A stretch of DNA of 64,000 nt from Acidobacteriota bacterium (GTDB lineage Bacteria; Acidobacteriota; JAAYUB01), in contig JAKQOW010000036.1 in NCBI GenBank assembly GCA_029565065.1, positions 123,846-187,845 on the forward strand. The letters are read 5' to 3'. Shown one piece after another: positions 10,738-28,258 of this stretch; within the stretch, counting starts at the first letter, position 1; each line of letters starts with the position of its first letter. A model generated the notes under the pieces. That model saw only the letters and a program-made list of their open reading frames with translations. It ran no database searches and had not been told where the DNA came from. Both the position numbers and the translations under genes were made by a program.

Positions 10738-12840
10738 TCACTCCTGCTGTCGGGCGATGACGACGGTGATGTCGTCGTGCTGCGGGCTCCCCTCGGACCA
10801 CGTGCGGATCGTTTCGAACAGGCGGTTCACGATCTGCTCGGGCGTGCCGTGGCGCTCCGCGAGGATCAGATCCACCAGGCGCTCCTCGCCGAACTCCTCG
10901 CCCTGCCGGTTGACTGAATCCACCACCCCGTCGGTATAGGTGATCACCTGATCCCCGGGATTGAGGCGGACGTCGCCCACCTCGAAAGACGTCTCGGGGA
11001 ATGCGCCCAGCACCGTGCCGCCCTCCGTGAGGGGGGTGACGGAGCCGTCGGCGCGCACCAGCAGCGGCGACTCGTGGCCGGCGTTGCAGTACTGGACGCG
11101 TGCCTGGTCGCCGAGAAAACTCAGGTAACACATCGTCGCGAACTTCTCGGGCGTCGTCAGCCGGTACAGGTGGCGGTTCAACACCTGCATGAGTGTGGTC
11201 AATCGGCGGACGTTTTCGCCGTCCGCCGCGTGCTCCAGCGGCGGCTGGGCCCGGATGGCGCTCTGCAGGCTGGCCATCAACAGGGCCGCCGAGATGCCCT
11301 TGCCGCTGATGTCGCCGACGACGACGTCGAGCAGCCGGTCCGACAGCGGCAGGTAATCGAAGAAGTCACCGCTGACCTCTCGCGCCGGCAGGCAGCGTCC
11401 GTGGAGCTGGATGCCGCAGACGCTGGGAGTGAATTTCGGGAAGAATTTCTGCTGCACCTCGCGGGCGATCTCCAGTTCCCGCTTGATGCGCTGCTTGTCG
11501 GCCACCTCGTGCAGGAGCGCGACGATGCCGGCCGACATGGTGTTGAAGGAACTCGACAGCTCACCCAGTTCGTCGGAGCGCTTCACGGGAATGCGGTAGT
11601 TCAGGTTCCCCTTCTTGATCTCCTCGGTGCCGAGGGACAGCTGCCGCACCGACAGGGTGACGGACCGGATGATGAACATCCCCACCACGATCGACGCCAC
11701 CTGGAGCACCACGAAGAGGTAGATCAGGAAGAGCAGCAGTTGGACCACCTCCTCGCTGACGGCAGTCCGCGTGGCCAGGTTGCGGACGATGGTCGTCAGC
11801 GGAATCTGGAGGTTGGTCCAGATCCGCCGCTGCGTCGAACTCGTCGTGTCGAACGTGAACCAGTCGGTCACGTCGAAGGTGTTGGCCGAGTTGATGGGGT
11901 AATCCCACCAGTCGTTGGATTTGCTCCGGGCGCGCTGGTGATCCTTCAGCTCCTCGGGCGTGACGATGGCGGGCTTCTGCCCCCGGAAGCCGTTGAACGC
12001 CTGGTACGAGATCATCTGCGCGCGGGTGCCGCTCATCTGGACGGTTTCCGAAATGCTGACGAAGGCGCTCAGGTTGCTGTTGGCCAGCAGGTGGTTGAAC
12101 AGCGGCTCCCGGAAGGGGATGAAGAGGTCGAGGTAGTACTGCTGGTCCTCGATCCGCACGAGATTGTGGCTGTAAATGAACAGGCTGAAATTCTTGATGA
12201 GGGTGCCGGAGTAGGGCAGCTCCTGCAGCCAGTCAGGCAGGAATTCGTTCTGGAAGGAACGATAGTCGAGGGGGCTGTCCAGCAGGATGTGCTGCATGGT
12301 GCCGCGTTCGTCCACGCGGTACAGCATGGTGGAGATGTCCGGCAGATCCGGAGCGCGGGTGACGATCACGGTGCGGAAATTTTCCAACAGGAATTCGGGA
12401 TCGTCCGCCTTGTCGGGATGGTTGTAGAGGATCTCCGCCATGGCGGCGTTGACCGTCTGCAGGCGGAAGCTGATGTTCCGGAGCTCGCTCTGGAACACGA
12501 ACAGCGACAGGTTGCTCGCGAAGATCAGCACGATCAGAAACGCCAGGAGCAGGACCAGCGCCAGCGGCAGGAAGCCGGTGAACAGGTAGAAAAAGATCAC
12601 CCGGTTGCGCACCCGGTAGAAGAGCCGATCCTTGAGCCGGCGGCCCAGCCGGTACAGCGCCCATCCGCCTGCGGCGAGGAAGCAGAGTGTGGCGGCCCCC
12701 CGGCCGATGGCATACAGGTCGGCGGACATGAAGCTGAGGGCGGTGGCGAGGCAGTACAGCGCCATGCCGCCGGCCAGGAGCCAGAACAGGGGGCTGCGTT
12801 TGAGCTGGCGCCAGGACAATGACTCGCTGCCGACAGGCAT
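10738..12840 (-). CDS. Membrane HAMP-SpoIIE (PP2C-type) serine phosphatase
   Basis: 700 aa. N-terminal hydrophobic segments lie at about 18-38, 44-62 and 81-112. A large sensory region of about 260 residues follows, then a transmembrane helix near 375-400 and a HAMP domain (IKKGNLNYRIPVKRSDELGELSSSFNTM spans the conserved end). A short coiled linker (REVQQKFFPKF) leads to a SpoIIE/RsbU-type phosphatase domain with metal-binding Asp in VSGDFFDY, VVGDISGKG and PQHDDITVV. RsbU-like proteins dephosphorylate anti-anti-sigma factors, but no such partner is seen in the window. It is the last gene of the operon with the M16-like protein and the thioesterase (12-bp gap). AAGGGG precedes the start. Confidence 0.93.
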   Translation of the reverse strand: MPVGSESLSWRQLKRSPLFWLLAGGMALYCLATALSFMSADLYAIGRGAATLCFLAAGGWALYRLGRRLKDRLFYRVRNRVIFFYLFTGFLPLALVLLLAFLIVLIFASNLSLFVFQSELRNISFRLQTVNAAMAEILYNHPDKADDPEFLLENFRTVIVTRAPDLPDISTMLYRVDERGTMQHILLDSPLDYRSFQNEFLPDWLQELPYSGTLIKNFSLFIYSHNLVRIEDQQYYLDLFIPFREPLFNHLLANSNLSAFVSISETVQMSGTRAQMISYQAFNGFRGQKPAIVTPEELKDHQRARSKSNDWWDYPINSANTFDVTDWFTFDTTSSTQRRIWTNLQIPLTTIVRNLATRTAVSEEVVQLLLFLIYLFVVLQVASIVVGMFIIRSVTLSVRQLSLGTEEIKKGNLNYRIPVKRSDELGELSSSFNTMSAGIVALLHEVADKQRIKRELEIAREVQQKFFPKFTPSVCGIQLHGRCLPAREVSGDFFDYLPLSDRLLDVVVGDISGKGISAALLMASLQSAIRAQPPLEHAADGENVRRLTTLMQVLNRHLYRLTTPEKFATMCYLSFLGDQARVQYCNAGHESPLLVRADGSVTPLTEGGTVLGAFPETSFEVGDVRLNPGDQVITYTDGVVDSVNRQGEEFGEERLVDLILAERHGTPEQIVNRLFETIRTWSEGSPQHDDITVVIARQQE

Positions 12841-12852
12841 GGCGGTTCCCCT

Positions 12853-13296
12853 TCAGCTGGCGTCGGCCGGCCGGCTCCAGGCGGCCAGCATCGTGGCGTA
12901 CGGCGCCGGAACGGTGGTCCGGCGGCCCGCCCGGTCGACTGGGACGTGGGTGGTTTCCCCTTCGGCGACGAGGCGATCCGGACCGAGGTGAAACACCTCA
13001 TAGCGGAACCGCAGCAGCCGCGCGCTCACCGGGTCGAGGCGGGTGCGGACGCGGATCGGATCGTCGTAGGTCACCGGCGCCTTGTACCGGCAGCGGGCCT
13101 CGGCGACCACGAGGTAGATGTTTTCCAGGCGTTCCAGGTCGGCGTAGGAAAATCCCGCCGCGCGGCAGAACTCGGTCCGGCCCATCTCGAACCAGACGAG
13201 ATGCACGCTGTGGTGGGCCACACCCATGCGGTCCGTCTCGGCGTAGCGCACGCGCAGGTCGATGTCCACGTGGAGGGAGGCGCTGGGGGGCGTCAT
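12853..13296 (-). CDS. YbgC/4HBT-family acyl-CoA thioesterase
   Basis: 147 aa. The hot-dog-fold motif is RVRYAETDRMGVAHHSVHL, with the catalytic Asp (AETD) and downstream WFEMGR, as in YbgC and 4-hydroxybenzoyl-CoA thioesterases. The family hydrolyses acyl-CoA thioesters in the cytosol, often linked to the cell-envelope Tol-Pal system; no tol or pal genes are here. The start overlaps the upstream M16-like stop as ATGA. Its length matches the family (130-150 aa). Confidence 0.9.
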   Translation of the reverse strand: MTPPSASLHVDIDLRVRYAETDRMGVAHHSVHLVWFEMGRTEFCRAAGFSYADLERLENIYLVVAEARCRYKAPVTYDDPIRVRTRLDPVSARLLRFRYEVFHLGPDRLVAEGETTHVPVDRAGRRTTVPAPYATMLAAWSRPADAS

Positions 13297-14675
13297 TTGT
13301 CCTGACCCCATGTCCGGGCGGCGACCGGCTGGAGGGCGGCCGGCCAGGCGGCCGGCGGGACGTCTCCGCCCGTCACGAGGACCGCCTTGAGCCGCTCGTC
13401 GGCGAGGTAGTGCCCGGCGAAGTACCGCAAGTCTTCCTTGATCACCAGCTCCAGCCGCTCGTCGAACGTCGCCAGATGCCGGGTGCCCAGCCGGAACCAC
13501 TCCACCTCGAGCAGCTCGCGCAGCAGGGTGTCGGGATCGGCCAGGCGGCGGCTCCGCTCGGCGGCCAGGCGGCCGCGGGCTTCCTGAAATTCCTCCTCGG
13601 AGAACCGGCCGGCGGCGATCTCCCGGAGCTGACGCAGGACCTCCGCCGCCGTCGGTTCGAGCCCGGCGGGATCGCCGCTGAGGCTGATGCAAAACGCGCC
13701 GCGCAGCATGCGGGCTTCGGCCGCGGCGGCCGCCTCGACGCCCGGGTGCTCCGTGAGCCAGGGTTGCAGGCGCTGCTGCAGAACCAGGGCAAGAAGTTCG
13801 CCGGTCAGTCCGTCCTCGTGCTTGCGGCGGACGCTCTCGGCCCCGATGACGGCACAGGCGGTCGCGGCCCCGGGCAGCCGCACTGCCTGGGTGCGAACCG
13901 CCGGGTCCGGGCGGGGGGGCTGGAACTGGTAGTCCGGCGCCTCGCTCTTGATCCAGGGGCCGAAGTACTGACTGGCCAGGCGCCGCAGCTCGGGCGCCGC
14001 CGCGTGAGACGAGATCAGCAGCAGGGAGCGGCTGGGGGTCACGCAGCGGCGGAAGAACCGGATGGCGTCGTCCAGCTCGATCGACCCCACCGTCTGCGGG
14101 GTCCCGCGCGGCGGGTTGCCGTAGGGGAAGGGAGCGAACACCAGCCGCTGCCACTCGTGGCCGGCCACCTCCCGCGGCTGATCCTCGAGGCGGATGTCCT
14201 CAAGCTGGACCGCGTCGCGTATCGTCCGGAACGTTCCGGGATCGAAGGCGGGCTGGATCACGGTGTCGGCCAGCAACCGCACCGCGGTCTCCAGCATGGC
14301 CGGCGGGCCGGACACGGTGAGCCGGATGCCGTCGGCGTCGACCGCGTCGTCGAAGACCAGGGGGAGTTGGGCCGGATCGCGCGGCGCCCATTCGAGTTCG
14401 GCGCGCTGGCGCAGGATCAACTTCAGGTACTGGCCGGTGAGGTGGGCGGTGCCGCTCTTGCCCGGGGGATCGAAGACAGCGCCGCTGGCCACCAGCAGGT
14501 GCGCCACGAACCGGTCCTGATGCAGCGGCACGGCCGCGACCGTCATGTCATTGAGCAGGGTGCGGCGGCTCACGTTCGGAATGGCCGGCTCGGCGCCGGC
14601 GGCGGCCGGCGCCGCGGCGGGCGAGAAGATGGCCAGCACCGCAAGCGCCAGCAGGAGATGATGCCGAACCGTCAC
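13293..14675 (-). CDS. Exported M16-family peptidase homologue lacking the zinc motif
   Basis: 460 aa from a GTG at 14675 with GGGAGG upstream. An upstream in-frame ATG at 14721 overlaps the promoter -10 and is unlikely. The N-terminus is a signal peptide (HHLLLALAVLAIFSPAAA). The body aligns by eye with M16B peptidases (VASGAVFDPPGKSGTAHLTGQYL; later PYGNPPRGTPQTVGSI and the M16_C region), but the HxxEH zinc site expected at HLTGQ is not kept: only the first His remains. It is therefore probably the non-catalytic partner of an M16 heterodimer. No catalytic subunit is adjacent. It is followed by the thioesterase (ATGA overlap). Confidence 0.82.
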   Translation of the reverse strand: MTVRHHLLLALAVLAIFSPAAAPAAAGAEPAIPNVSRRTLLNDMTVAAVPLHQDRFVAHLLVASGAVFDPPGKSGTAHLTGQYLKLILRQRAELEWAPRDPAQLPLVFDDAVDADGIRLTVSGPPAMLETAVRLLADTVIQPAFDPGTFRTIRDAVQLEDIRLEDQPREVAGHEWQRLVFAPFPYGNPPRGTPQTVGSIELDDAIRFFRRCVTPSRSLLLISSHAAAPELRRLASQYFGPWIKSEAPDYQFQPPRPDPAVRTQAVRLPGAATACAVIGAESVRRKHEDGLTGELLALVLQQRLQPWLTEHPGVEAAAAAEARMLRGAFCISLSGDPAGLEPTAAEVLRQLREIAAGRFSEEEFQEARGRLAAERSRRLADPDTLLRELLEVEWFRLGTRHLATFDERLELVIKEDLRYFAGHYLADERLKAVLVTGGDVPPAAWPAALQPVAARTWGQDK

Positions 14676-14718
14676 CGTAACTTCCTCCCGGAAAGAATCC
14701 CGCGGGCGGGATTCCTCC

Positions 14719-14746
14719 ATTATACTGGAAACACCCCGGAGCGCAA
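14719..14746 (-). promoter_or_regulatory. Sigma-70-type promoter of the M16/thioesterase/SpoIIE operon
   Basis: On the minus strand the -35 is TTGCGC (14746-14741) and the -10 is TATAAT (14724-14719), 16 bp apart. The predicted transcription start near 14712 supports translation from the GTG at 14675. Confidence 0.6.
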
Positions 14747-14771
14747 TCCCGGCGCCGGCGACGGACGGGCA

Positions 14772-14800
14772 TTGGGGCCGCCGGCGTTCTCTGTTAGAAT
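14772..14800 (+). promoter_or_regulatory. Sigma-70-type promoter of the RNA methyltransferase gene
   Basis: TTGGGG (14772-14777) and TAGAAT (14795-14800) are 17 bp apart and about 60 bp before the GTG start at 14859. The element is divergent from the M16 operon promoter. Confidence 0.5.
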
Positions 14801-14858
14801 GATACGCGGGACGGCGCCGACCGGTTCTTGGACGCCGCCGGCGGCAGCGAGGTGAGTC

Positions 14859-16235
14859 GTGATCACGCTTCAGACGCTTAAGGAGATGCAGGCCGCCCTG
14901 CAGGCCGTGCTCGAGGAAGGGGCCTATCTGCGGGACGCGCTCAGCCGCGTGCTGCGGGGCCGGGAACTGTCGGCGGCTGAGCGGGGCTGGATCCGGGAAA
15001 CCCTGTACCGGGCCGTTCAGCTCAAAAACCGGTATTGGACCCAGCTCGAGGCGTTCGCGGCCGAGCATCCCGGCAAGGACGAATCGGTCATGGACATCCG
15101 GTTGGTCATCACCAGCCAGCAGCGGGAGAAGCGGGACCTGTTGGCGGTGGACCGCCACGTGCAGGCGCTGCTGCGGCCCAAGTCGCGCGTCCGCAAGTTC
15201 GTCGAGTTTCTGGATGCCAATCCGCCCGGCCGGCTGTTCCCGTCGCTCAAGCAAGAGCCGCTGGAGCATCTGTGGCGCTTCCACTCCCATCCCCTCTGGC
15301 TGGTGCGGAAATGGCTGGGCAGTCTTTCGCCGGAGGAAGTGCTCAAGCTCTGCCGCTTCAACAACGGGCAACCGGAGGCGGTGCTGCGGGTCAATCCGCT
15401 GAAAAATTCCCGGGAAGAGCTGCTGGCGCGTCTGGCCGAGTCGGGCGCGCGCTGCACCCCCGATCCGGTGGCGCCGCTGGCGATCCGGGCGGACCACCGC
15501 TTCGATCCGCTCACCCAGCCCGGCTACCGCGAGGGCCGCTTCACCCTGCAGAGCGTGTCGTCGCAGTTGGTCTGCCTCTACGTCAACCCGAAGCCCGGCC
15601 AGCGGGTGTTGGACTACTGCGCCGGCGAGGGGGGCAAGACACTGCTGCTGGCCCACCTGATGAAGGGGCGGGGTGAGGTGCACGCCCACGACGCCCAGGG
15701 CTGGCGCCTGCGCAACCTGCAGCTCCGGGCCCGGCGCGAGGGCGTGGGCAACGTCCGCCTGGGCGGCCTACGCGAGATCCGGAACCTCGCCGGCCGGTTC
15801 GACCTGGTGCTGCTGGACGTTCCCTGTTCGGGGAGCGGCAATCTGCGCCACCAGCCGGAGCTGCGGTGGAAGCTGCAGCCCGGCGACCTGAACCGGTTCA
15901 ACCGCCAGCAGCTCGAGATCCTGGAGGAAGCGGCGCCGCTGGCTGCACCCGGCGGGCTGCTCGCCTACGTCACCTGCTCGCTGTTTCGGGAGGAGAACCA
16001 CAAGGTCGTCAGCCGGTTTCTCCGCACCCATCCCGACTGGTCCCTGGTGAAGCCGGCCGACCATCTGGCCCGGCAGCATGCCAAGAACTTCTGGCTCCCG
16101 GCCGACGCGCTCAAGCCTTTCGCCGGACCCGACTACTTCGAGGTTCTGCCCCACCGGGACAACCTGCCGGCCATGTTCTGCGCGATCTTGAAAAGGGAGA
16201 GCGGGCACAACACGGAAGACGTAGCTCGCGACTAG
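14859..16235 (+). CDS. RsmB/NOP2/Sun-family RNA m5C methyltransferase
   Basis: 458 aa, GTG start with AGGTGA upstream. The N-terminal 150 residues form a helical domain in the place of the NusB-like RNA-binding domain of RsmB. The C-terminal Rossmann domain has SAM motif I DYCAGEGGKTLLLA, the catalytic motif IV LDVPCSGSGNLRHQPELRW and motif VI YVTCSLF. Both Cys residues used by this family (PCS and TCS) are present, so it should be active as a 5-methylcytosine methyltransferase on rRNA or tRNA. Its stop codon is immediately followed by the first repeat island. Confidence 0.92.
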   Translation: MITLQTLKEMQAALQAVLEEGAYLRDALSRVLRGRELSAAERGWIRETLYRAVQLKNRYWTQLEAFAAEHPGKDESVMDIRLVITSQQREKRDLLAVDRHVQALLRPKSRVRKFVEFLDANPPGRLFPSLKQEPLEHLWRFHSHPLWLVRKWLGSLSPEEVLKLCRFNNGQPEAVLRVNPLKNSREELLARLAESGARCTPDPVAPLAIRADHRFDPLTQPGYREGRFTLQSVSSQLVCLYVNPKPGQRVLDYCAGEGGKTLLLAHLMKGRGEVHAHDAQGWRLRNLQLRARREGVGNVRLGGLREIRNLAGRFDLVLLDVPCSGSGNLRHQPELRWKLQPGDLNRFNRQQLEILEEAAPLAAPGGLLAYVTCSLFREENHKVVSRFLRTHPDWSLVKPADHLARQHAKNFWLPADALKPFAGPDYFEVLPHRDNLPAMFCAILKRESGHNTEDVARD

Positions 16236-16366
16236 ATGCTCGTTCCGCTTTCGTGCTCGTAATTCGTCATCGTAATTCGTAATCGTAATTTGTGCTCGTA
16301 ATCGAGGCTAGAGGCTCGTCCCCCCGCTTGTTCACCGTTTACTGTTCACCGTTCACTGTTGGCCCG
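16236..16366 (-). repeat. Repeat island A: degenerate short-period repeat words (inverted relative to B and C)
   Basis: It starts right after the RNA methyltransferase stop. Read on the minus strand, it contains a GGTGAAC/AGTAAAC word array (16360-16330), a GAGCCT word (ACGAGCCTCTAGCCTCGA, 16319-16302) and a TTACGA word array (about 16303-16248). The array includes an exact 22-bp core (16286-16265) also found in islands B and C. The end nearest the gene reads ATTACGAGCACGAAAG (16263-16248), identical to the end of island B. From 16367 to 16461 I see no repeats or genes. Confidence 0.75.
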
Positions 16367-16461
16367 TCCATCCCCCTTCCTGTGCCAACGGCTCGCGCGC
16401 TGCCGCCGCCATCGCCTGTGTTATCTATCCTCTCGCCCCGAAAACAATCGCTGAAATCCCG

Positions 16462-16489
16462 TTGCGTCGGCGGTGAAATTCACTACAAT
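16462..16489 (+). promoter_or_regulatory. Sigma-70-type promoter of the Ser/Thr kinase gene
   Basis: TTGCGT (16462-16467) and TACAAT (16484-16489), 16 bp apart, give a leader of about 60 nt before the ATG at 16556. It lies outside repeat island A, which argues that the kinase start is 16556 and not the longer open frame that reads into the repeats. Confidence 0.45.
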
Positions 16490-16555
16490 CTTCTGGATAT
16501 CCCGATCGACGACGAATCCAATCCCACATGCCATTGGGGCGAAAAGGGAGCCGTC

Positions 16556-19261
16556 ATGCCGCAATGTCCTGCCTGCCACGCCGAAGTGCCGGAAGACGCC
16601 GCGAGTTGTCCGTCGTGCGGAGCCGTAATCGCGGTCCGGGTGATGAACGGCGGAGACGAGGTGCTGTCTGTCACTCTGTCCCCGGTCCCCTATCAATCGG
16701 GAAGTAGTCCGTCCCGGTCGGCCGGGGGAACGAAAGCGCCGGTGGATCCTGGATTCGCTCCGGGCACCGTGTTCGCCGACCGGTATCGGATCGTAACCCG
16801 GCTGGGCGCAGGGGGTATGGGAGAGGTTTACCGGGCCGACGATCTGAAGCTGGGCCAGACGGTGGCCCTGAAGTTCCTGGCCCGCGACCTGGAGGCCAAC
16901 CCGCGGCTGCTGGAGCTGTTCCGATCCGAGGTGCGGCTGGCGCGAGAGGTGACCCATCCCAACGTCTGCCGCGTCCACGATATCGGTGAGGCCGAGGGGC
17001 GCCACTTCCTGACCATGGAGCGGGTCGACGGTGAGGATCTCGGATCGCTGCTCAAGCGGATCGGGCGGCTGCCGGGCGAGAAGGCGCTCCAAGTGGCGCG
17101 GCAGCTCTGCGCCGGCCTGGCGGCGGCCCACGACAAGGGGGTTCTGCACCGCGACCTGAAGCCGGCCAACATCATGCTGGACGGCCGGGGCACCGTGCGG
17201 ATCACCGATTTCGGCCTGGCCCTGCTGGCGGGGGAGGGCGGCGACGAAATGGCCGGTACTCCCGCCTACATGGCGCCGGAGTTGTTCGACGGCCAAAAGG
17301 CCACCGTCAGGAGCGACATCTACGCGTTGGGCCTCGTGCTCTACGAGGTGTTCACGGGCCACCGCGCGTTCGACGGGACGACGTACCTGGACATGCAGCG
17401 GCAGCAGGCTGAGAGCACACCTTCGACTCCGTCCACCCTGGTGCCGGATCTGGATCCGGCGGTGGGGCGCGTCATCGCCCGGTGCATGGAGAAAGATCCG
17501 GCCCTCCGCCCGGTGTCGGTGGCCCAGGTGATGGCGGCTCTGCCCGGTGGCGATCCACTGGCCGCGGCTCTGGCCGCCGGCGAAACGCCGTCACCCGAAC
17601 TGGTGGCCGCCGCAGGCGCGGAGGGTACCCTGCGGCCGTGGGTGGCCGTCGTCCTCCTGGCCGCGATCGCGGTGATGCTGGCCGCCGCGGCGCTGCTCTG
17701 GCCGCTGGGCAGCACCCAGGGGCTGGCCCGCCTGGCCATGGGACCCGAGGCGCTGGCCGACCGGTGCCGGCAGATTGCCCAGACGTTCGGTTATCCGGTT
17801 CCGAGCGACCGGGCGTCGTGGGGCGAGACGGAAACGGACTTTATCGAATACCACCTCAAGGCGGGACCGTCGACGGCGCAACGGCGTATGCTGCCGGGAT
17901 CGCGTCCCGGCACCTTGACCCTGCACTATCGGGAGACGCCGCGCTCCTTCAGGTTGTCGGCCTTCCAGACCGGCGTCAGCGACACCCAGCCCCCCCACAC
18001 GGATCCCGGGATGGTGGACGTCCGTATCGACGGGCAAGGCCGGCTGATGCGGTTTCGAGCGGTGCCGCCCGTCCGGGTGGAGCCGGCGGCGGCGGTCCGG
18101 CCGGTTGACTGGAGCGCCCTCTTTCGCGAGGCGGGCCTGGATCCAGCCGCGTGGCAGGAGGTGCCGCCCACGCTGACTCCACCGGTGGCCGCCGACGCGC
18201 GCCGCGAGTGGATCGAGGCCCACCCGGCGGCCGGTGCGAAGCCCCTCCGGGCGGCCGCTGCCGCCTTCGACGGGCGGGTGGTCTGGTTCACGCTGGCCGG
18301 TCCGTGGGAAAAACCCGCCGGGGCGGATCGGTCCGAACAGTCCGCCGGCTGGCTGTACGGTTCCGTGAACATCATGATCTTCGTGGGATTGATGGGATTG
18401 GGCGTGTACCTGGTCCGGCGCAATCTGCGGGCGGGGCGGGGTGACCGGCGCGGTGCACTCCGCGTGGCCGCGATCATTGGCATCTCCCTGCTGGCCAACT
18501 GGGTGCTGATCGCCCGCATGCCCGCCACGCTCGGCGGCGTTACCGGTTGGATTTTCGCCGGCATCGCCATCGCCATGGGGCAGGCCGGATTCGTGTGGGC
18601 CGTGTACCTGGGGATCGAACCGTATGTCCGGCGCCGGTGGCCCAACGTGCTCATCGGCTGGTCGCGGCTGTTGGCGGGCGGCTGGCGCGATCCGCTCGTG
18701 GGCCGGGACGTGCTGACGGGGACTCTGCTGGGCCTGGGGATCTGGCTCTTCAACAGCGTCAGCGCGGCGCTTCCCGGCTGGTTGGACATGACGGACTCGG
18801 CCACGTCGCTGCTCGACTCCAGGGTGTTTCCCGTCTCAGTCGCCGAAGGGCTGGGCTGGTTGGCCGGGTTGCCGGTGCTGGCGATGTCCAACGGCGTGTT
18901 CATTGCGGGCATCCTCTTCGTGCTCCGGCTGGTGCTCCGCCGGGACTGGCTGGCTGCCGTCGCCTTCACCCTGCTGGTCTTCGTGCCCCAGTTGTTCAGC
19001 GGCGGCGAGCTCCTGCTGGCGCCGCTGGGTTTCGCGGTGGTGCTGCTGCTCGCGATGTCGCTGGTGCGGTGGGGGCTCCTGACCTTCGCCGTGTGCCTGC
19101 TGGTGAACAGTCTGGAGCCGGCGGCGCCGGTGTTCGCGGCCGTCGGCTGCTGGGTCCCCTGGCAGGGCTGGCTGGGGACCGTGGTGGTGGCAGCCCTGGC
19201 CGCCTACGGTTTCCGCGTCGCCCTGGGCCGCCAGAAGTTGCTGCCGTCGCTGGATGAGTGA
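16556..19261 (+). CDS. Zinc-ribbon Ser/Thr protein kinase with polytopic membrane C-terminus
   Basis: 901 aa from the ATG at 16556, with AGGGAG upstream. The N-terminus is a zinc ribbon (CPAC and CPSC at residues 4-21). The Hanks-type kinase domain (about 70-335) has the Gly-rich loop GAGGMGEVYRADD, Lys in VALKFLARD, HRDLKPANIML near residue 198, ITDFGLA near 220 and APELFD, so it should be active. A transmembrane helix follows at about 362-384, then a 220-residue extracytoplasmic region, then about eight transmembrane helices (600-890) with a CAAX-protease or transporter-like look but no motif I can name. Kinases of this layout are abundant in Acidobacteriota and Myxococcota. The gene is bracketed by repeat islands A and B in opposite orientation. 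Confidence 0.92.
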   Translation: MPQCPACHAEVPEDAASCPSCGAVIAVRVMNGGDEVLSVTLSPVPYQSGSSPSRSAGGTKAPVDPGFAPGTVFADRYRIVTRLGAGGMGEVYRADDLKLGQTVALKFLARDLEANPRLLELFRSEVRLAREVTHPNVCRVHDIGEAEGRHFLTMERVDGEDLGSLLKRIGRLPGEKALQVARQLCAGLAAAHDKGVLHRDLKPANIMLDGRGTVRITDFGLALLAGEGGDEMAGTPAYMAPELFDGQKATVRSDIYALGLVLYEVFTGHRAFDGTTYLDMQRQQAESTPSTPSTLVPDLDPAVGRVIARCMEKDPALRPVSVAQVMAALPGGDPLAAALAAGETPSPELVAAAGAEGTLRPWVAVVLLAAIAVMLAAAALLWPLGSTQGLARLAMGPEALADRCRQIAQTFGYPVPSDRASWGETETDFIEYHLKAGPSTAQRRMLPGSRPGTLTLHYRETPRSFRLSAFQTGVSDTQPPHTDPGMVDVRIDGQGRLMRFRAVPPVRVEPAAAVRPVDWSALFREAGLDPAAWQEVPPTLTPPVAADARREWIEAHPAAGAKPLRAAAAAFDGRVVWFTLAGPWEKPAGADRSEQSAGWLYGSVNIMIFVGLMGLGVYLVRRNLRAGRGDRRGALRVAAIIGISLLANWVLIARMPATLGGVTGWIFAGIAIAMGQAGFVWAVYLGIEPYVRRRWPNVLIGWSRLLAGGWRDPLVGRDVLTGTLLGLGIWLFNSVSAALPGWLDMTDSATSLLDSRVFPVSVAEGLGWLAGLPVLAMSNGVFIAGILFVLRLVLRRDWLAAVAFTLLVFVPQLFSGGELLLAPLGFAVVLLLAMSLVRWGLLTFAVCLLVNSLEPAAPVFAAVGCWVPWQGWLGTVVVAALAAYGFRVALGRQKLLPSLDE

Positions 19262-19303
19262 TCGCCGGCCGCAGCATCGGAGGAGACCGACCGATGGGTA
19301 ACT

Positions 19304-19531
19304 CGGTGAGTCGGTGAATCGTTACGAGGATCTGGGTTCTGTAATCCAGGACCCAGAACCCAGGTCCTAGGTCCCAGGTCCGATTTCCGAATTCCGATAT
19401 CCGAAGTCCGATGTTCGCGTTACGGGAACGAGCCTCTAGCCTCGAGTCTCGAGCCTCGATTACGATTACGATCACGATTACGAATTACGATGACGGATTA
19501 CGATCACGAATTACGATTACGAGCACGAAAG
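19304..19531 (+). repeat. Repeat island B: five successive short-period repeat word arrays
   Basis: Five blocks with different words follow one another. They are GGTGAATC-type (19304-19321), GGACCCAGAACCCAGG-type (19331-19381), CCGATTTC/CCGAATTC-type (19380-19412), GAGCCTC-type (19428-19458, including ACGAGCCTCTAGCCTCGA as in A) and TTACGA-type (19457-19528, containing the shared 22-bp core at 19474-19495). Block 2 also holds a perfect 10-bp inverted repeat CTGGGTTCTG/CAGAACCCAG (19332-19363). The island lies between the convergent kinase and small membrane protein genes, with the TTACGA end 23 bp from the latter's stop. Confidence 0.8.
19332..19363. terminator. Hairpin inside repeat island B
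   Basis: CTGGGTTCTG (19332-19341) and CAGAACCCAG (19354-19363) pair perfectly around a 12-base loop, 70 bp downstream of the kinase stop. There is no T-tract. It could act as a terminator or an RNA-stabilising structure, or simply reflect words present in both orientations. Confidence 0.3.
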
Positions 19532-19553
19532 GGGACGCGCATCGAGTTTCGTC

Positions 19554-19895
19554 TCACTTCATCCGATGGAAGCCCACGGCGGCCAGGGCCCACGCCACGG
19601 CCATGGCGGAGAAGGCGACAGCGCCGGGGAGCAACGCCTCGGCAAATCCGCCCAGAAGCATCTGCACGTTGCACGCATCCGTGAGCCCGGCGTTGGAGGC
19701 GAAGGCCAGCGTGTTGGCCGAGCCGGCACAAAACATGCCCACGGCGCCGAATGCCAGCCCCAGCGACAGGGGGCGCAGGATAGCCAGTTTTGTCTCAGCG
19801 GGGCGAACGGCGAACGAGATGGCCACGCCGAGCGAGCAGATTGTGAGAACCAGGACGATCGCGAGCTGAAGCAGACCCAGCAAGCCGATGTGCAT
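19554..19895 (-). CDS. Small integral membrane protein of unknown function
   Basis: 113 aa from the ATG at 19895, with a strong GGAGG upstream. Three transmembrane helices are evident: about 3-28 (LLGLLQLAIVLVLTICSLGVAISF), 40-65 (PLSLGLAFGAVGMFCAG) and 88-110 (LLPGAVAFSAMAVAWALAAVGF). The layout loosely resembles MotA/TolQ/ExbB-type components, but no diagnostic residue is visible and I do not assign a family. It is divergent from the ECF sigma factor and shares a 100-bp control region with it, so it may belong to that sigma factor's regulon. Confidence 0.7.
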   Translation of the reverse strand: MHIGLLGLLQLAIVLVLTICSLGVAISFAVRPAETKLAILRPLSLGLAFGAVGMFCAGSANTLAFASNAGLTDACNVQMLLGGFAEALLPGAVAFSAMAVAWALAAVGFHRMK

Positions 19896-19946
19896 GATGA
19901 CCTCCGCGCAGTTGGTTTGATACAAATAACGCCGAGACCGAGGTAT

Positions 19947-19972
19947 CGTGACACCAGAAATTTGTTGTCACG
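19947..19972. promoter_or_regulatory. Inverted repeat in the control region between the membrane protein and ECF sigma genes
   Basis: CGTGACA (19947-19953) and TGTCACG (19966-19972) are perfect 7-bp inverted copies with a 12-bp spacer. The repeat sits in the middle of the divergent region, about 25 bp before the sigma start and 50 bp before the membrane protein start. The geometry suits a dimeric operator controlling both genes. Confidence 0.4.
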
Positions 19973-19996
19973 CGCTGGCGCTTTCCGCGTTATGGT

Positions 19997-20560
19997 ATGG
20001 CGATGGACGTAGACGCGGACCGGGAGCAGCACTGGCTCGCAGAGTTGCGGGGCGGCGACGAGGCGGCCTTCCGGCAGATCTATCGCACCTACCGGCCGTG
20101 CCTCTACACGTTCCTTTGCCGCCTGAGCGGACGATCCGACGTGGCCGAGGACTTGCTCCAGGAAGTCTGGCTCCGTTTGGCGGCGCACCCGCCCGAACCG
20201 CGGGCGGGGCTGACGCTGGCGCCGTGGCTGTTCCGGGTGGCCCGCAACGTGTTCGTCAGCTATCTCCGGAACCGCAACCTCGATTCGAACCGGCTGGGCG
20301 AGCTGGACGTTTTCAAGTTCCACGCCGCGCCGGGACCTGGACCTTTGGAGGCGCTGGCGGAGTCGGAGTCGGTCCGCTCCCTGGAACAGGCTCTCCGGCG
20401 CCTGCCGTCGACGGACCGGCAGACCGTGCTCCTCGTTGCGGCCGGCGGGCTGACGCCGGCCGAGGCCGCCGGGGTGCTGGGGATGCGGCCGGACGCCTTC
20501 CGTCAGCGGCTGTCCCGCGCTCGCGCCCGGCTGGCGGAATTGCTGGGCGCCATGGATTGA
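19997..20560 (+). CDS. ECF-type RNA polymerase sigma factor
   Basis: 187 aa. Region 2 (about 25-95) shows the typical DEAAFRQIYRTYRPCLYTFL, DVAEDLLQEVWLRLA and WLFRVARNVFVSYLRNRN. Region 4 (about 125-180) has LPSTDRQTVLLVAAGGLTPAEAAGVLGM and DAFRQRLSRARARL, the helix-turn-helix that contacts the -35 element. ATGs at 19992, 19997 and 20003 are all near the N-terminus and no good ribosome site distinguishes them. The next gene, 15 bp downstream, is a candidate anti-sigma partner. The regulon is unknown. Confidence 0.9.
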   Translation: MAMDVDADREQHWLAELRGGDEAAFRQIYRTYRPCLYTFLCRLSGRSDVAEDLLQEVWLRLAAHPPEPRAGLTLAPWLFRVARNVFVSYLRNRNLDSNRLGELDVFKFHAAPGPGPLEALAESESVRSLEQALRRLPSTDRQTVLLVAAGGLTPAEAAGVLGMRPDAFRQRLSRARARLAELLGAMD

Positions 20561-20575
20561 TACACGGAGGCCGCC

Positions 20576-20851
20576 ATGGAATCGAAACCATCCCCTCTCA
20601 GCGAAATGGAACTGAACCGGCGGCTCGCCGAACTGCCGCTCCTGGACCTGCCGGAGTTGACGGCAGACCGCCAGGAAGCGGCGGCGCTGGCCGTGCTGGC
20701 CCGCCGGCGGCGCGGGCCGGCGCTGCGACGGGTGTGGGCGTTCACCGTCCGCGAGCTCGAGCCGCTCCTTGTCGCGCTCGTCGGCGCCGGATACATTCTG
20801 GCGGCCGTGCTGCGCGCCATCGCGGCTTATTCCATTGCCGTGCTGCCGTGA
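20576..20851 (+). CDS. Small single-pass membrane protein, candidate anti-sigma factor
   Basis: 91 aa, GGAGG six bases before the ATG. An acidic, Leu-rich cytosolic N-terminus (MELNRRLAELPLLDLPEL) and a basic patch (ARRRRGPALRR) precede one or two hydrophobic stretches at about 62-90. It lacks the HxxxCxxC zinc-binding anti-sigma motif, so it is not a classical ZAS protein. Its position directly after an ECF sigma gene and its topology are the only grounds for suggesting that it tethers the sigma factor. It is followed by repeat island C. Confidence 0.65.
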   Translation: MESKPSPLSEMELNRRLAELPLLDLPELTADRQEAAALAVLARRRRGPALRRVWAFTVRELEPLLVALVGAGYILAAVLRAIAAYSIAVLP

Positions 20852-20874
20852 AGGCGGGCGGGTTGGTGGATTCT

Positions 20875-21200
20875 TTCACCACAGAGGTCACAGCGGACAC
20901 AGAGAAAACCATCTGTCATCGGACATTTGTCATTTTTCATTTGTGATTGGGCAGAAGGGAGACGGTGAATCGGTAAATAGGTGAATGGGTGAATCGGGAG
21001 ACGGGAAACAGACACGGACAGCCATCAACGATCAACCATCAACTGTCCGGGAACCTGAGAACCTGGAACTTGCGAACCTGCGAACATTCCAACATCAAAC
21101 ATTCAAACGGTTCGATCACGATTACGATCACGATTACGAATTACGATTACGAATTACGATGACGAGCACGGGCTCCCAACTCCTATCTCCTAACTATCCC
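20875..21200 (+). repeat. Repeat island C: eight successive short-period repeat word arrays
   Basis: Eight blocks follow each other over 325 bp. They are CACAGAGG-type (20875-20908), TGTCATT-type (20911-20950), GGTGAATC-type (20964-20998), ATCAACC-type (21023-21045), GAACCTGG-type (21050-21086), CAAACATTC-type (21083-21109), TTACGA-type (21111-21170, with the 22-bp core shared with A and B at 21143-21164) and CTCCTAAC-type (21174-21200), which runs into the rtcB stop codon. It lies between convergent genes. No ORF or RNA gene is credible here. Confidence 0.8.
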
Positions 21201-22657
21201 TTGACCACTCCCATCGGGCGCAGGCGGGCCACCATGCGGCTCAGCCCCGCAACATGAACGGTCTGCACCACCTCGGTCACGTCCTTGTAGGCTTCGGGGA
21301 TCTCCTCCACCAGCGTCGCCCGCGAGGCAGCCATGACATGGATGCCGCGCTCGCGGAGCTCGGCGTCGATGGAGCGGCCCTTGGCGGCCTTCATGGCGCC
21401 GTGGCGGCTCAGGAGCCGGCCCGCGCCGTGGCAGGTGCTGCCGAACGTGGCGCTCATGGATTTTTCGGCGCCGACCAGGATGTATGAACAGCGGCCCATG
21501 TCGCCCGGGATGATCACCGGCTGGCCGATATCGCGGTACGCCTCGGGGAGCGCCGGGTGGCCCGGGCCGAACGAGCGCGTCGCCCCCTTGCGGTGGACGC
21601 AGACCGTCTGTTCGCGCCCCTCCACGAGATGCCGCTCGATCTTGGCGATGTTGTGGGCGACGTCGTACACCAGTCGGAGGCCCAGGCGGGCCGGCGGCAG
21701 GCGCAGCGCCTCCTGGAACGACTCGCGCACCCAGTGGGTGATGAGTTGGCGGTTGGCGAAGGCGTAGTTGGCCGCGGCGGCCATCACCGCGAGGTACTCC
21801 CGCCCTTCGGGTGACGCCACCGGCGCGCAGCAGAGCTGCGGGTCGGGCAGCTCGATGCCATACCTGGCCGCGGCCCGCTTCATAGCGACGATGGAGTCAT
21901 CGCAGACCTGGTAGCCCAGTCCGCGCGAACCGGTGTGGATGCTCACCGTCACCTGGTTCATGAACAGGCCCAGCCGGCGGGCCGCCGCCTCGTCATACAC
22001 CTGGTCCACATAGCCGATTTCGAGAAAGTGGTTGCCGGAGCCCAGGGTGCCGAGTTGGGTCCGGCCACGCTCCCGGGCTTTCTCCGAGACCCGGCCGGCG
22101 TCGGCGTCGGGAATCGCGCCGCGGTCCTCGATGCAGTCGAGGTCCTCCGCGTCGCCGTAGCCGTGGCGGATTGCCCACTCGGCCCCCTTCTCCAGCACCT
22201 GCCGCTCGGCCTTGGCGTCCAGACGCAGGTCCTTCCGCCGCGACCCGACGCCCGACGGCACGTTGCGGAACATCGCGGCGACCAGGTCGCGGATCCGGTC
22301 GACGACCTCGGGGCGGGTCAGCCGGGAGGCGAGCACGCGGACGCCGCAGTTGATGTCGTACCCCACGCCGCCCGGGCTGACCACGCCGTCGGCGGTGTCG
22401 AAGGCGGCCACGCCGCCGATGGGAAAGCCGTAGCCCCAGTGGATGTCTGGCATGGCCAGGGAAAACATCCGGATCCCCGGCAGGGTGGCCACGTTGGCCA
22501 GTTGGAGCAGGCTCTGGTCGTGGCGCAGCGACTCCAGCAGGGACGGCGAGGCGTAGAAGACGGCATCGACGCGCATGGGCCCATGGCGCGGGATCTTCCA
22601 GGTGACCGCGTCCACCGGCTCGATGCCGGCGATGATGTCCTCGATCTGAAAGCCCAT
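21194..22657 (-). CDS. rtcB: RtcB-type RNA-splicing ligase
   Basis: 487 aa from the ATG at 22657. The Mn/GTP ligase signature motifs are all present: PDIHWGYGFPIGGVAAFD, GGVGYDINCGVR (metal Cys), GSGNHFLEIGYVD, HTGSRGLGYQV, YDVAHNIAKIE, IPGDMGRCSYIL and STCHGAGR, whose His is the guanylylated residue in characterised RtcB enzymes. It joins 2',3'-cyclic phosphate or 3'-phosphate RNA ends to 5'-OH ends. It is 14 bp downstream of an archease gene, its known activating partner, so the two form an RNA repair or tRNA-splicing unit. No RtcA or RtcR is present. Its 3' end abuts repeat island C. Confidence 0.96.
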   Translation of the reverse strand: MGFQIEDIIAGIEPVDAVTWKIPRHGPMRVDAVFYASPSLLESLRHDQSLLQLANVATLPGIRMFSLAMPDIHWGYGFPIGGVAAFDTADGVVSPGGVGYDINCGVRVLASRLTRPEVVDRIRDLVAAMFRNVPSGVGSRRKDLRLDAKAERQVLEKGAEWAIRHGYGDAEDLDCIEDRGAIPDADAGRVSEKARERGRTQLGTLGSGNHFLEIGYVDQVYDEAAARRLGLFMNQVTVSIHTGSRGLGYQVCDDSIVAMKRAAARYGIELPDPQLCCAPVASPEGREYLAVMAAAANYAFANRQLITHWVRESFQEALRLPPARLGLRLVYDVAHNIAKIERHLVEGREQTVCVHRKGATRSFGPGHPALPEAYRDIGQPVIIPGDMGRCSYILVGAEKSMSATFGSTCHGAGRLLSRHGAMKAAKGRSIDAELRERGIHVMAASRATLVEEIPEAYKDVTEVVQTVHVAGLSRMVARLRPMGVVKG

Positions 22658-25463: not shown

Positions 25464-26750
<1,287 letters not shown>

Positions 26751-26780
26751 GCGTTTCTCTCTGACACAGTGTCTCCGAAC

Positions 26781-26810
26781 AGCCGGCTGGCCTCAGCCGG
26801 CTTTTTTTTT
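26781..26810 (+). terminator. Intrinsic terminator of glutamate dehydrogenase 1
   Basis: The AGCCGGCT stem (26781-26788 with 26795-26802) and a six-base loop are followed by an unbroken run of nine T. This is a textbook Rho-independent terminator 30 bp after the stop. Confidence 0.9.
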
Positions 26811-26829
26811 ATTACCGCCGCCGAATTCG

Positions 26830-28258
<1,429 letters not shown>

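Follow-up and report, generated by a model that had tools for sequence, protein, structure and literature searches.

Intergenic islands of degenerate heptamer words with two inward-pointing arms, and their place around a protein kinase gene in an Acidobacteriota genome

The DNA analyzed here, referred to as the window, is a stretch of 64,000 nt from contig JAKQOW010000036.1 of the Acidobacteriota assembly GCA_029565065.1 (G000; 4.4 Mb, 184 contigs). It holds a Ser/Thr protein kinase gene with a repeat island on either side (A upstream and B downstream), and a further island, C, located 1.3 kb beyond B; neither C nor the wide dispersal of the repeats figures in the preliminary description of this DNA. 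Our results show that such islands have two arms built of words of about 7 nt that point inwards, with a word polarity that is fixed around the island centre. The islands lie mostly behind genes, favouring gene 3' ends, and they keep their sites between relatives while their content changes. There is nothing unusual about A, B and C within this dispersed family, and they are not private to the kinase. We hold with moderate confidence that they belong to a genus-level family of non-coding islands and that they and the kinase do not together make up a mobile or switching unit of its own.

Most counts below come from a contig-chosen sample of 495,269 nt of G000, with 382 called genes and 46 gaps that hold an island. 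This sample consists of the window and the stretches L041-L060, L065 and L087, and is not random; one of its contigs, C34 (95 kb; stretches L058, L059, L060, L065 and L087), was included after several matches to island A had already appeared there. Polarity was scored on 102 islands, i.e., these 46 and a held-out set of 56 others, which were picked by their likeness to A, B and C and are thus not a random sample either. Islands with fewer than four word pairs were omitted from the scoring, as were ties.

The islands are chains of degenerate words, each found together with its reverse complement. The words include TCGTAAT, GAGGCTC, TCGGACA, ACCTGGG, TTGATGG, GGAGATA and GGTGAAT, as well as AACAGTG, CAGGTTC, GGGTTCG, CATTTGT, CACAGAG and TTGAAGG. 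A single G-rich word of the quadruplex type does not describe them, as there are many words and few contain runs of three G. Every listed word has one form that prevails on the left and a reverse complement that prevails on the right, whichever strand is read, with the exception of CAGGTTC, whose two forms have equal mean positions. Where an island contained both forms of a word two or more times each, the left form came first in 42 of 47 word-by-island cases. The same order holds between different words, since 81 of the 83 islands that could be scored have left forms ahead of right forms, with 2 against. The polarity labels were first chosen after the islands had been viewed and were then relearnt on the 46 contig-chosen islands, which gave identical labels. 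The relearnt labels held in 33/33 contig-chosen and 48/50 held-out islands, compared with a mean of 0.49 and a maximum of 0.70 under a run-flipping null. Among 90 control gaps, nine could be scored, of which two agreed with the rule, five went against it and two were ties. A label-free measure agrees with this, as G-C skew was higher in the left half of 82/102 islands compared with 45/90 control gaps. This excess was seen in all four gene-orientation classes and in 18 of the 22 contig-chosen islands outside C34.

Searches of G000 returned at least 60 matches to A, 68 to B and 77 to C, queries included; each search gave 295–316 first-look candidates, of which only 40 were scored each time (40 of 295 for A). 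Of the 46 sampled islands, 24 are on C34 and 22 in the other 400 kb, so that the island density on this contig is about five times that of the remaining sample. The sampled density is 5.5 islands per 100 kb when C34 is excluded and 9.3 when it is included, from which a total of about 240 to 410 islands in the genome is estimated. The periodic sequence is concentrated between genes, where it covers 8402 of 50,659 nt, compared with 1890 of 444,610 genic nt. Among the 62 tracts of G000, the period was 6 in 12, 7 in 21, 8 in 9 and 9–15 in 20, and the shuffled control gave none. Gaps of at least 120 nt were occupied in 17/22 convergent, 21/71 tandem and 5/40 divergent cases (Fisher p 5e-7 for convergent versus divergent), or in 12/17, 8/50 and 1/32 cases, respectively, when C34 was left aside. 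Within 23 tandem gaps, the median distance of the island was 5 nt to the stop codon upstream and 88 nt to the start codon downstream. Consecutive islands enclosed exactly one gene in 12 of 30 pairs, that around the kinase included.

The two close relatives compared, G001 and G002, are both metagenome-assembled genomes (MAGs). Island A is found at the same place in all three genomes, and its copies differ largely by gains and losses of repeat units. G000 and G001 have different middle words at site C, which are right-form words in both. An orthologue was found for 11 of 13 island gaps tested, and 9 of these 11 differed in length by more than 3 nt, compared with one of 11 non-island gaps. At the orthologous sites of the islands inspected, words were still visible by eye, even though three of the G001 copies had a periodicity score of zero. 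The polarity was kept in 7/7 scored orthologous gaps in G001 and 6/6 in G002, counts that are not independent of G000. No empty site was found among the 11 orthologous island gaps; target duplications were not searched for systematically. In G002, the orthologue of the island at L042:6588-6824 (L117) carries about 550 nt of unrelated sequence inserted within its right arm.

The islands also share sequence with each other. A stretch of 70 nt or longer with an identity of at least 85% to another island is present in 79/102 islands and in 0/70 control gaps. Nine aligned copies of the composite seen in B have in common an inner core, in which a linker can be recognised near CGTTACGGGAACGAGCC, while their outer ends and words differ.

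Paired arms recur outside the genus with other words. No tract was found in 79 kb of G003, from the same family, nor any match to each word pattern or its control. In G064, which belongs to another family, 189 kb contain 77 tracts (76 after a G+C filter) made of other words, and all 18 same-word inverted pairs scored there share one polarity. The sequence between its arms, with a longest word-free piece of 35–93 nt, is unrelated between copies except for two 12-nt matches. The G064 loci L304-L308 and L324-L329 show this arrangement cleanly, with paired arms that mostly repeat a single heptamer; they are the simplest form of island and better suited for study than the window. In G171, the skew rule held in 6 of 7 clusters, and this genome also has 326 matches of a GTCCAAG heptamer array, which was met as the reversed control of AACCTGG.

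Which form leads differs between genomes. With tracts whose words contain 6 or 7 G+C left aside, the first tract was more G-rich than the last in 21 clusters and less in 2 in G000, and the corresponding counts were 23/0 in G064, 4/1 in G171, 2/0 in G082, 1/0 in G029 and in G137, 0/5 in G217 and 0/1 in G065. Thus, all five scorable clusters of G217 have the opposite sign, and its single same-word pair is C-rich first. G029, G065, G082, G103, G129, G137 and G140 have too few clusters for judging polarity. A universal rule that the G-rich arm comes first was rejected on account of G217 and G065, and the polarity looks fixed within a genome without the leading form being universal.

A universal vocabulary across many phyla was not supported by the patterns tried (Acidobacteriota only). 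Three exact copies of AACCTGG were found in 5/247 genomes and not in G000 itself, i.e., this pattern is too strict, and its reversed control was found in 3/247. With one mismatch, GGAGATA was found in 4/149 genomes, three of them in this genus (reversed control 2/149), and ACAGTGA in 10/149 (reversed control 8/149, strong in G064, G137 and G103). Since the reversed controls also match, heptamer arrays recur, often with other words. In viral contigs, ATCAAC gave 86 stretches and its reversed control 58, a pair that is uninformative as rotating the word almost yields the control. A distant search of plasmids with island C gave no match.

We favour an explanation in which replication slippage changes the number of words, while homology-directed repair or template switching uses other islands as the source of new words and arm segments; this would account for their spread. 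Such copying would preserve polarity because a broken arm can anneal only to arms of the same polarity. Slippage and copying are favoured since together they would explain the shared linkers, the mosaics and the kept polarity. Islands might avoid promoters because insertions there are harmful, and the kinase gene may stand between two islands by chance.

Several observations weigh against this account. Slippage and copying explain how the polarity is maintained and not how paired arms originated, and the unrelated sequence between the arms in G064 looks as though both arms were formed together rather than recombined from old arms. No copying was caught as a dated event, and the comparison rests on two close relatives, both MAGs. 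As for single-gene brackets being common, 10 of the 12 are on C34, a contig chosen with knowledge of its several matches, and the 11 consecutive pairs outside it include two, one around the kinase and another in L045.

Next to slippage and copying, the explanation that survives best is that islands are scars of healed double-strand breaks, although we consider it unlikely. A repeat-adding polymerase would extend both free 3' ends at a break with telomere-like heptamers from a lineage-specific vocabulary before the ends are joined, and each island would be a record of one or more breaks. With the same vocabulary at both ends, one strand would carry a word in the left arm and its reverse complement in the right, as in interstitial telomere repeats joined head to head. 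This predicts the inward polarity, two arms whose words are independent of each other, indifference to gene direction, and unrelated sequence between the arms as in G064. However, RVT_1 proteins were not found in G000, G001 or G002 (MAGs 90–95% complete; other reverse transcriptase families and polymerases were not searched), and a telomerase-like reverse transcriptase was rejected as a candidate on that ground. Furthermore, the recurrence of the linker-bearing composite in nine aligned copies points to copying from islands, and the reversal in G217 of the form that leads by G-richness does not fit either.

Inward arms would also be expected of a fold-back element or of a non-autonomous element resembling a miniature inverted-repeat transposable element, with terminal arms of short repeats and a transposase supplied from elsewhere. 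The copies of the B composite, which are about 190–235 nt long, agree with such an origin. Still, we regard it as improbable, because constant terminal inverted ends were not found (the outer words vary among the nine aligned copies), no orthologous gap was an empty site, and the inner sequence in G064 is unrelated.

Given their position at gene 3' ends, the islands could instead have a function there, as a bidirectional terminator, a transcript-end stabiliser similar to repetitive extragenic palindromes, or a protein-binding boundary. In a folding test that omitted gaps below 100 or above 700 nt, a fold z below -3 was obtained for 8/40 islands and 4/106 other gaps. However, most islands barely exceed shuffles (median z -1.2), and island-free convergent gaps have a median z of -1.7, so islands are not better folders in that setting; a general description of the islands as hairpins was rejected, as only these 8 of 40 fold well. 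In G000, G001 and G002, one island directly follows a GC hairpin and T-run, and therefore this island is not itself the terminator. As island content is not conserved and window positions 15500-21500 gave no Rfam match, a 3'-end function has, in our judgement, a similarly low probability to that of a transposable origin.

The preliminary description, which our analysis partly supports, held that inverted copies of a repeat element bracket the kinase gene, the only gene between them, and that the unit could invert or be excised. The bracket itself was confirmed. A and B align in inverted orientation at 16251-16304 and 19469-19522 (54 nt, 83%), at 16250-16289 and 19471-19510 (40 nt, 93%) and at 16302-16323 and 19424-19445 (22 nt, 95%), and a single gene was called between them. 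With gaps trimmed at 600 nt, their longest exact inverted match is 22 nt, and the maximum in 1000 random pairs of 70 non-island control gaps is 15 nt. Yet this likeness is ordinary for the island family, because exact matches of at least 22 nt occur in 165 of 1035 pairs of the 46 sampled islands in either orientation and in 82 of 1035 in inverted orientation.

The two islands were also said to face each other in opposite orientation. This applies insofar as A is mostly left arm and B mostly right arm, but each island has both arms, and their opposition follows from the general inward polarity. When islands were oriented by their core words, both islands could be assigned in 4 of the 12 single-gene brackets, of which three are parallel and one, that of the kinase, is opposed; among oriented consecutive pairs enclosing any number of genes, 5/15 are opposed.

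The relatives do not bear out a mobile unit. G001, whose kinase is 80% identical to that of the window, is collinear with window positions 12000-19321, so the kinase and its upstream gene are co-oriented across A. In G002, contig C228 carries the kinase, B and the downstream genes together, collinear with 16784-20580; its A side is on a separate contig, and the junction of the kinase with A is not visible there. Between them, the two genomes cover both kinase junctions, in the window orientation only and in assembled sequence as opposed to read data. As previously described, no transposase or recombinase is nearby, at least by Pfam in 15 ORFs (open reading frames) between 8.1 and 28.3 kb of the window, where not every ORF was scanned. 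The kinase gene is thus probably not a mobile unit. An invertible or excisable unit, suggested by the 22-nt exact inverted match and by a different gene that lies between islands at B in G001, is hardly credible given that the junctions visible in the two relatives each show a single orientation and that 22-nt inverted matches are common among islands.

The gene difference at B is of interest for the islands more broadly. In G001, about 7.0 kb separate the points equivalent to window positions 19321 and 19553, and a 1958-aa LRR/FG-GAP ORF (L364:506-6382, contig C134) lies there between two islands; this ORF is missing at B (19262-19553) in G000 and G002. The left G001 island and the left end of B align at corresponding positions (81%). 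Positions 19346-19528 align with the right one at 74%, which is no better than the 70–94% at which unrelated islands match B, and a hybrid origin of B from the two G001 islands was accordingly reduced to a possibility. Recombination between islands is a possible cause of the gene difference, which lends weak support to such recombination more broadly, and islands may mark places of gene gain or loss.

The features of the locus are given in Table 1. In the stretch 16216-16250, the stop codon of the methyltransferase gene falls within a GGCTAG-type word, i.e., island A extends into the gene end. The left arm of A consists of TCGTAAT words (16250-16302) and GAGGCTC words (16302-16318), and the right arm of GTTCACC words (16329-16360). 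B has GGTGAAT and CTGGGTT words in its left arm, and CCCAGGT and TCCGA words, the linker, and GAGCCTC and ATTACGA words in its right arm. C has CACAGAG, CATTTGT and GGTGAAT words on the left and CATCAAC, GAACCTG, ATTCAAAC, ATTACGA and CTCCTAT words on the right, with one word match at 21108 in the opposite form. The kinase has an N-terminal zinc ribbon (PF13240, E 2.2e-5, under the Pfam cut-off) and, judged by eye from the translation, probable membrane segments in its C-terminal part. Homologues with about 37–44% identity over most of its length were found at 10 loci (L012-L021) in other families of the phylum, and the methyltransferase gene was not found beside them in flanks of 1.5 kb or shorter. 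Farther downstream (25464-28255), two Glu/Leu/Phe/Val dehydrogenase genes are adjacent in tandem.

Table 1. Genes and islands around the kinase locus, in window coordinates.
Feature	Position	Strand	Basis
RsmB/F-type rRNA methyltransferase gene	14859..16235	+	Pfam PF01189, E 3.6e-42; gene call
Island A	16236..16360	-	Sequence inspection; same site in G001 and G002
Ser/Thr protein kinase	16556..19261	+	PF00069, E 7.8e-51
Island B, composite	19294..19535	+	Sequence; part of a stretch with 99% identity in G002
Small ORF convergent with the kinase	19554..19925	-	Gene call; no Pfam hit
Sigma-70-type sigma factor gene, probably extracytoplasmic function (ECF)	19997..20560	+	PF04542, PF08281
Island C	20880..21190	none assigned	Sequence; same site in G001 with other middle words
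RtcB RNA ligase gene, 3' end adjoining island C	21194..22657	-	PF01139, E 2.8e-171

Head-to-head arms of short tandem repeats are known from eukaryotic fold-back elements and interstitial telomere fusions. The islands differ from these in that no constant end, no transposase domain nearby and no RVT_1 protein in G000-G002 was found. Short tandemly repeated repetitive (STRR) heptanucleotides of heterocystous cyanobacteria are likewise degenerate tandem heptamers spread over the genome, and to our knowledge they have no inward two-arm grammar.

The closest precedent, judging from portions of the article by Rehm et al. (PMC4692102), is the GGGAATC heptamer repeats of Xanthomonas. That text reports 70 (Xcc) and 75 (Xac) convergent inverted pairs, lying nearer the upstream gene and rarely between divergent genes, to which no role could be assigned. 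The islands resemble these repeats and the GGGGA(C/T)T repeats of Nostoc in being dispersed intergenic 7-nt units with few occurrences between divergent genes and in having sites that are mostly retained and lengths that vary, and they resemble the Xanthomonas repeats in their proximity to the upstream gene and in their convergent inverted pairs. In contrast, the same portions describe one G-rich word type, with few pairs in Nostoc (PMC4692102), whereas the islands have at least 13 words per genome, composite chains, a common inward polarity and arms that are often of different words. The TAACTGA repeats of Beggiatoaceae and some cyanobacteria, as described in parts of a second article, are also dispersed, mostly intergenic heptamer direct repeats with indels mostly in 7-nt steps; that article refers to a proposal that the 7-nt length stems from polymerase contact (PMC4679880). 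In the Beggiatoaceae genome they are mostly ahead of start codons, unlike the islands, which lie behind stops and have paired arms and many words (PMC4679880, same parts). A survey of short tandem repeats reports no average enrichment in bacteria, and its main text does not contain the terms "heptamer", "heptanucleotide" or "Acidobacter" (PMC12699852). No article dealing with islands of this kind in Acidobacteriota, or with an inward rule shared by several words, appeared among the open-licence PMC articles listed.

Collectively, the kinase bracket as such is ordinary. The islands matter because a strict polarity extends over many unrelated words, in the tested gaps of G000 and two close relatives, and recurs with other words in G064. 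This order demands a mechanism that acts equally on the two sides of a site. The old question of why bacterial simple repeats are so often heptamers, and why these form convergent pairs, can thereby be tested with word-polarity statistics in any genome.

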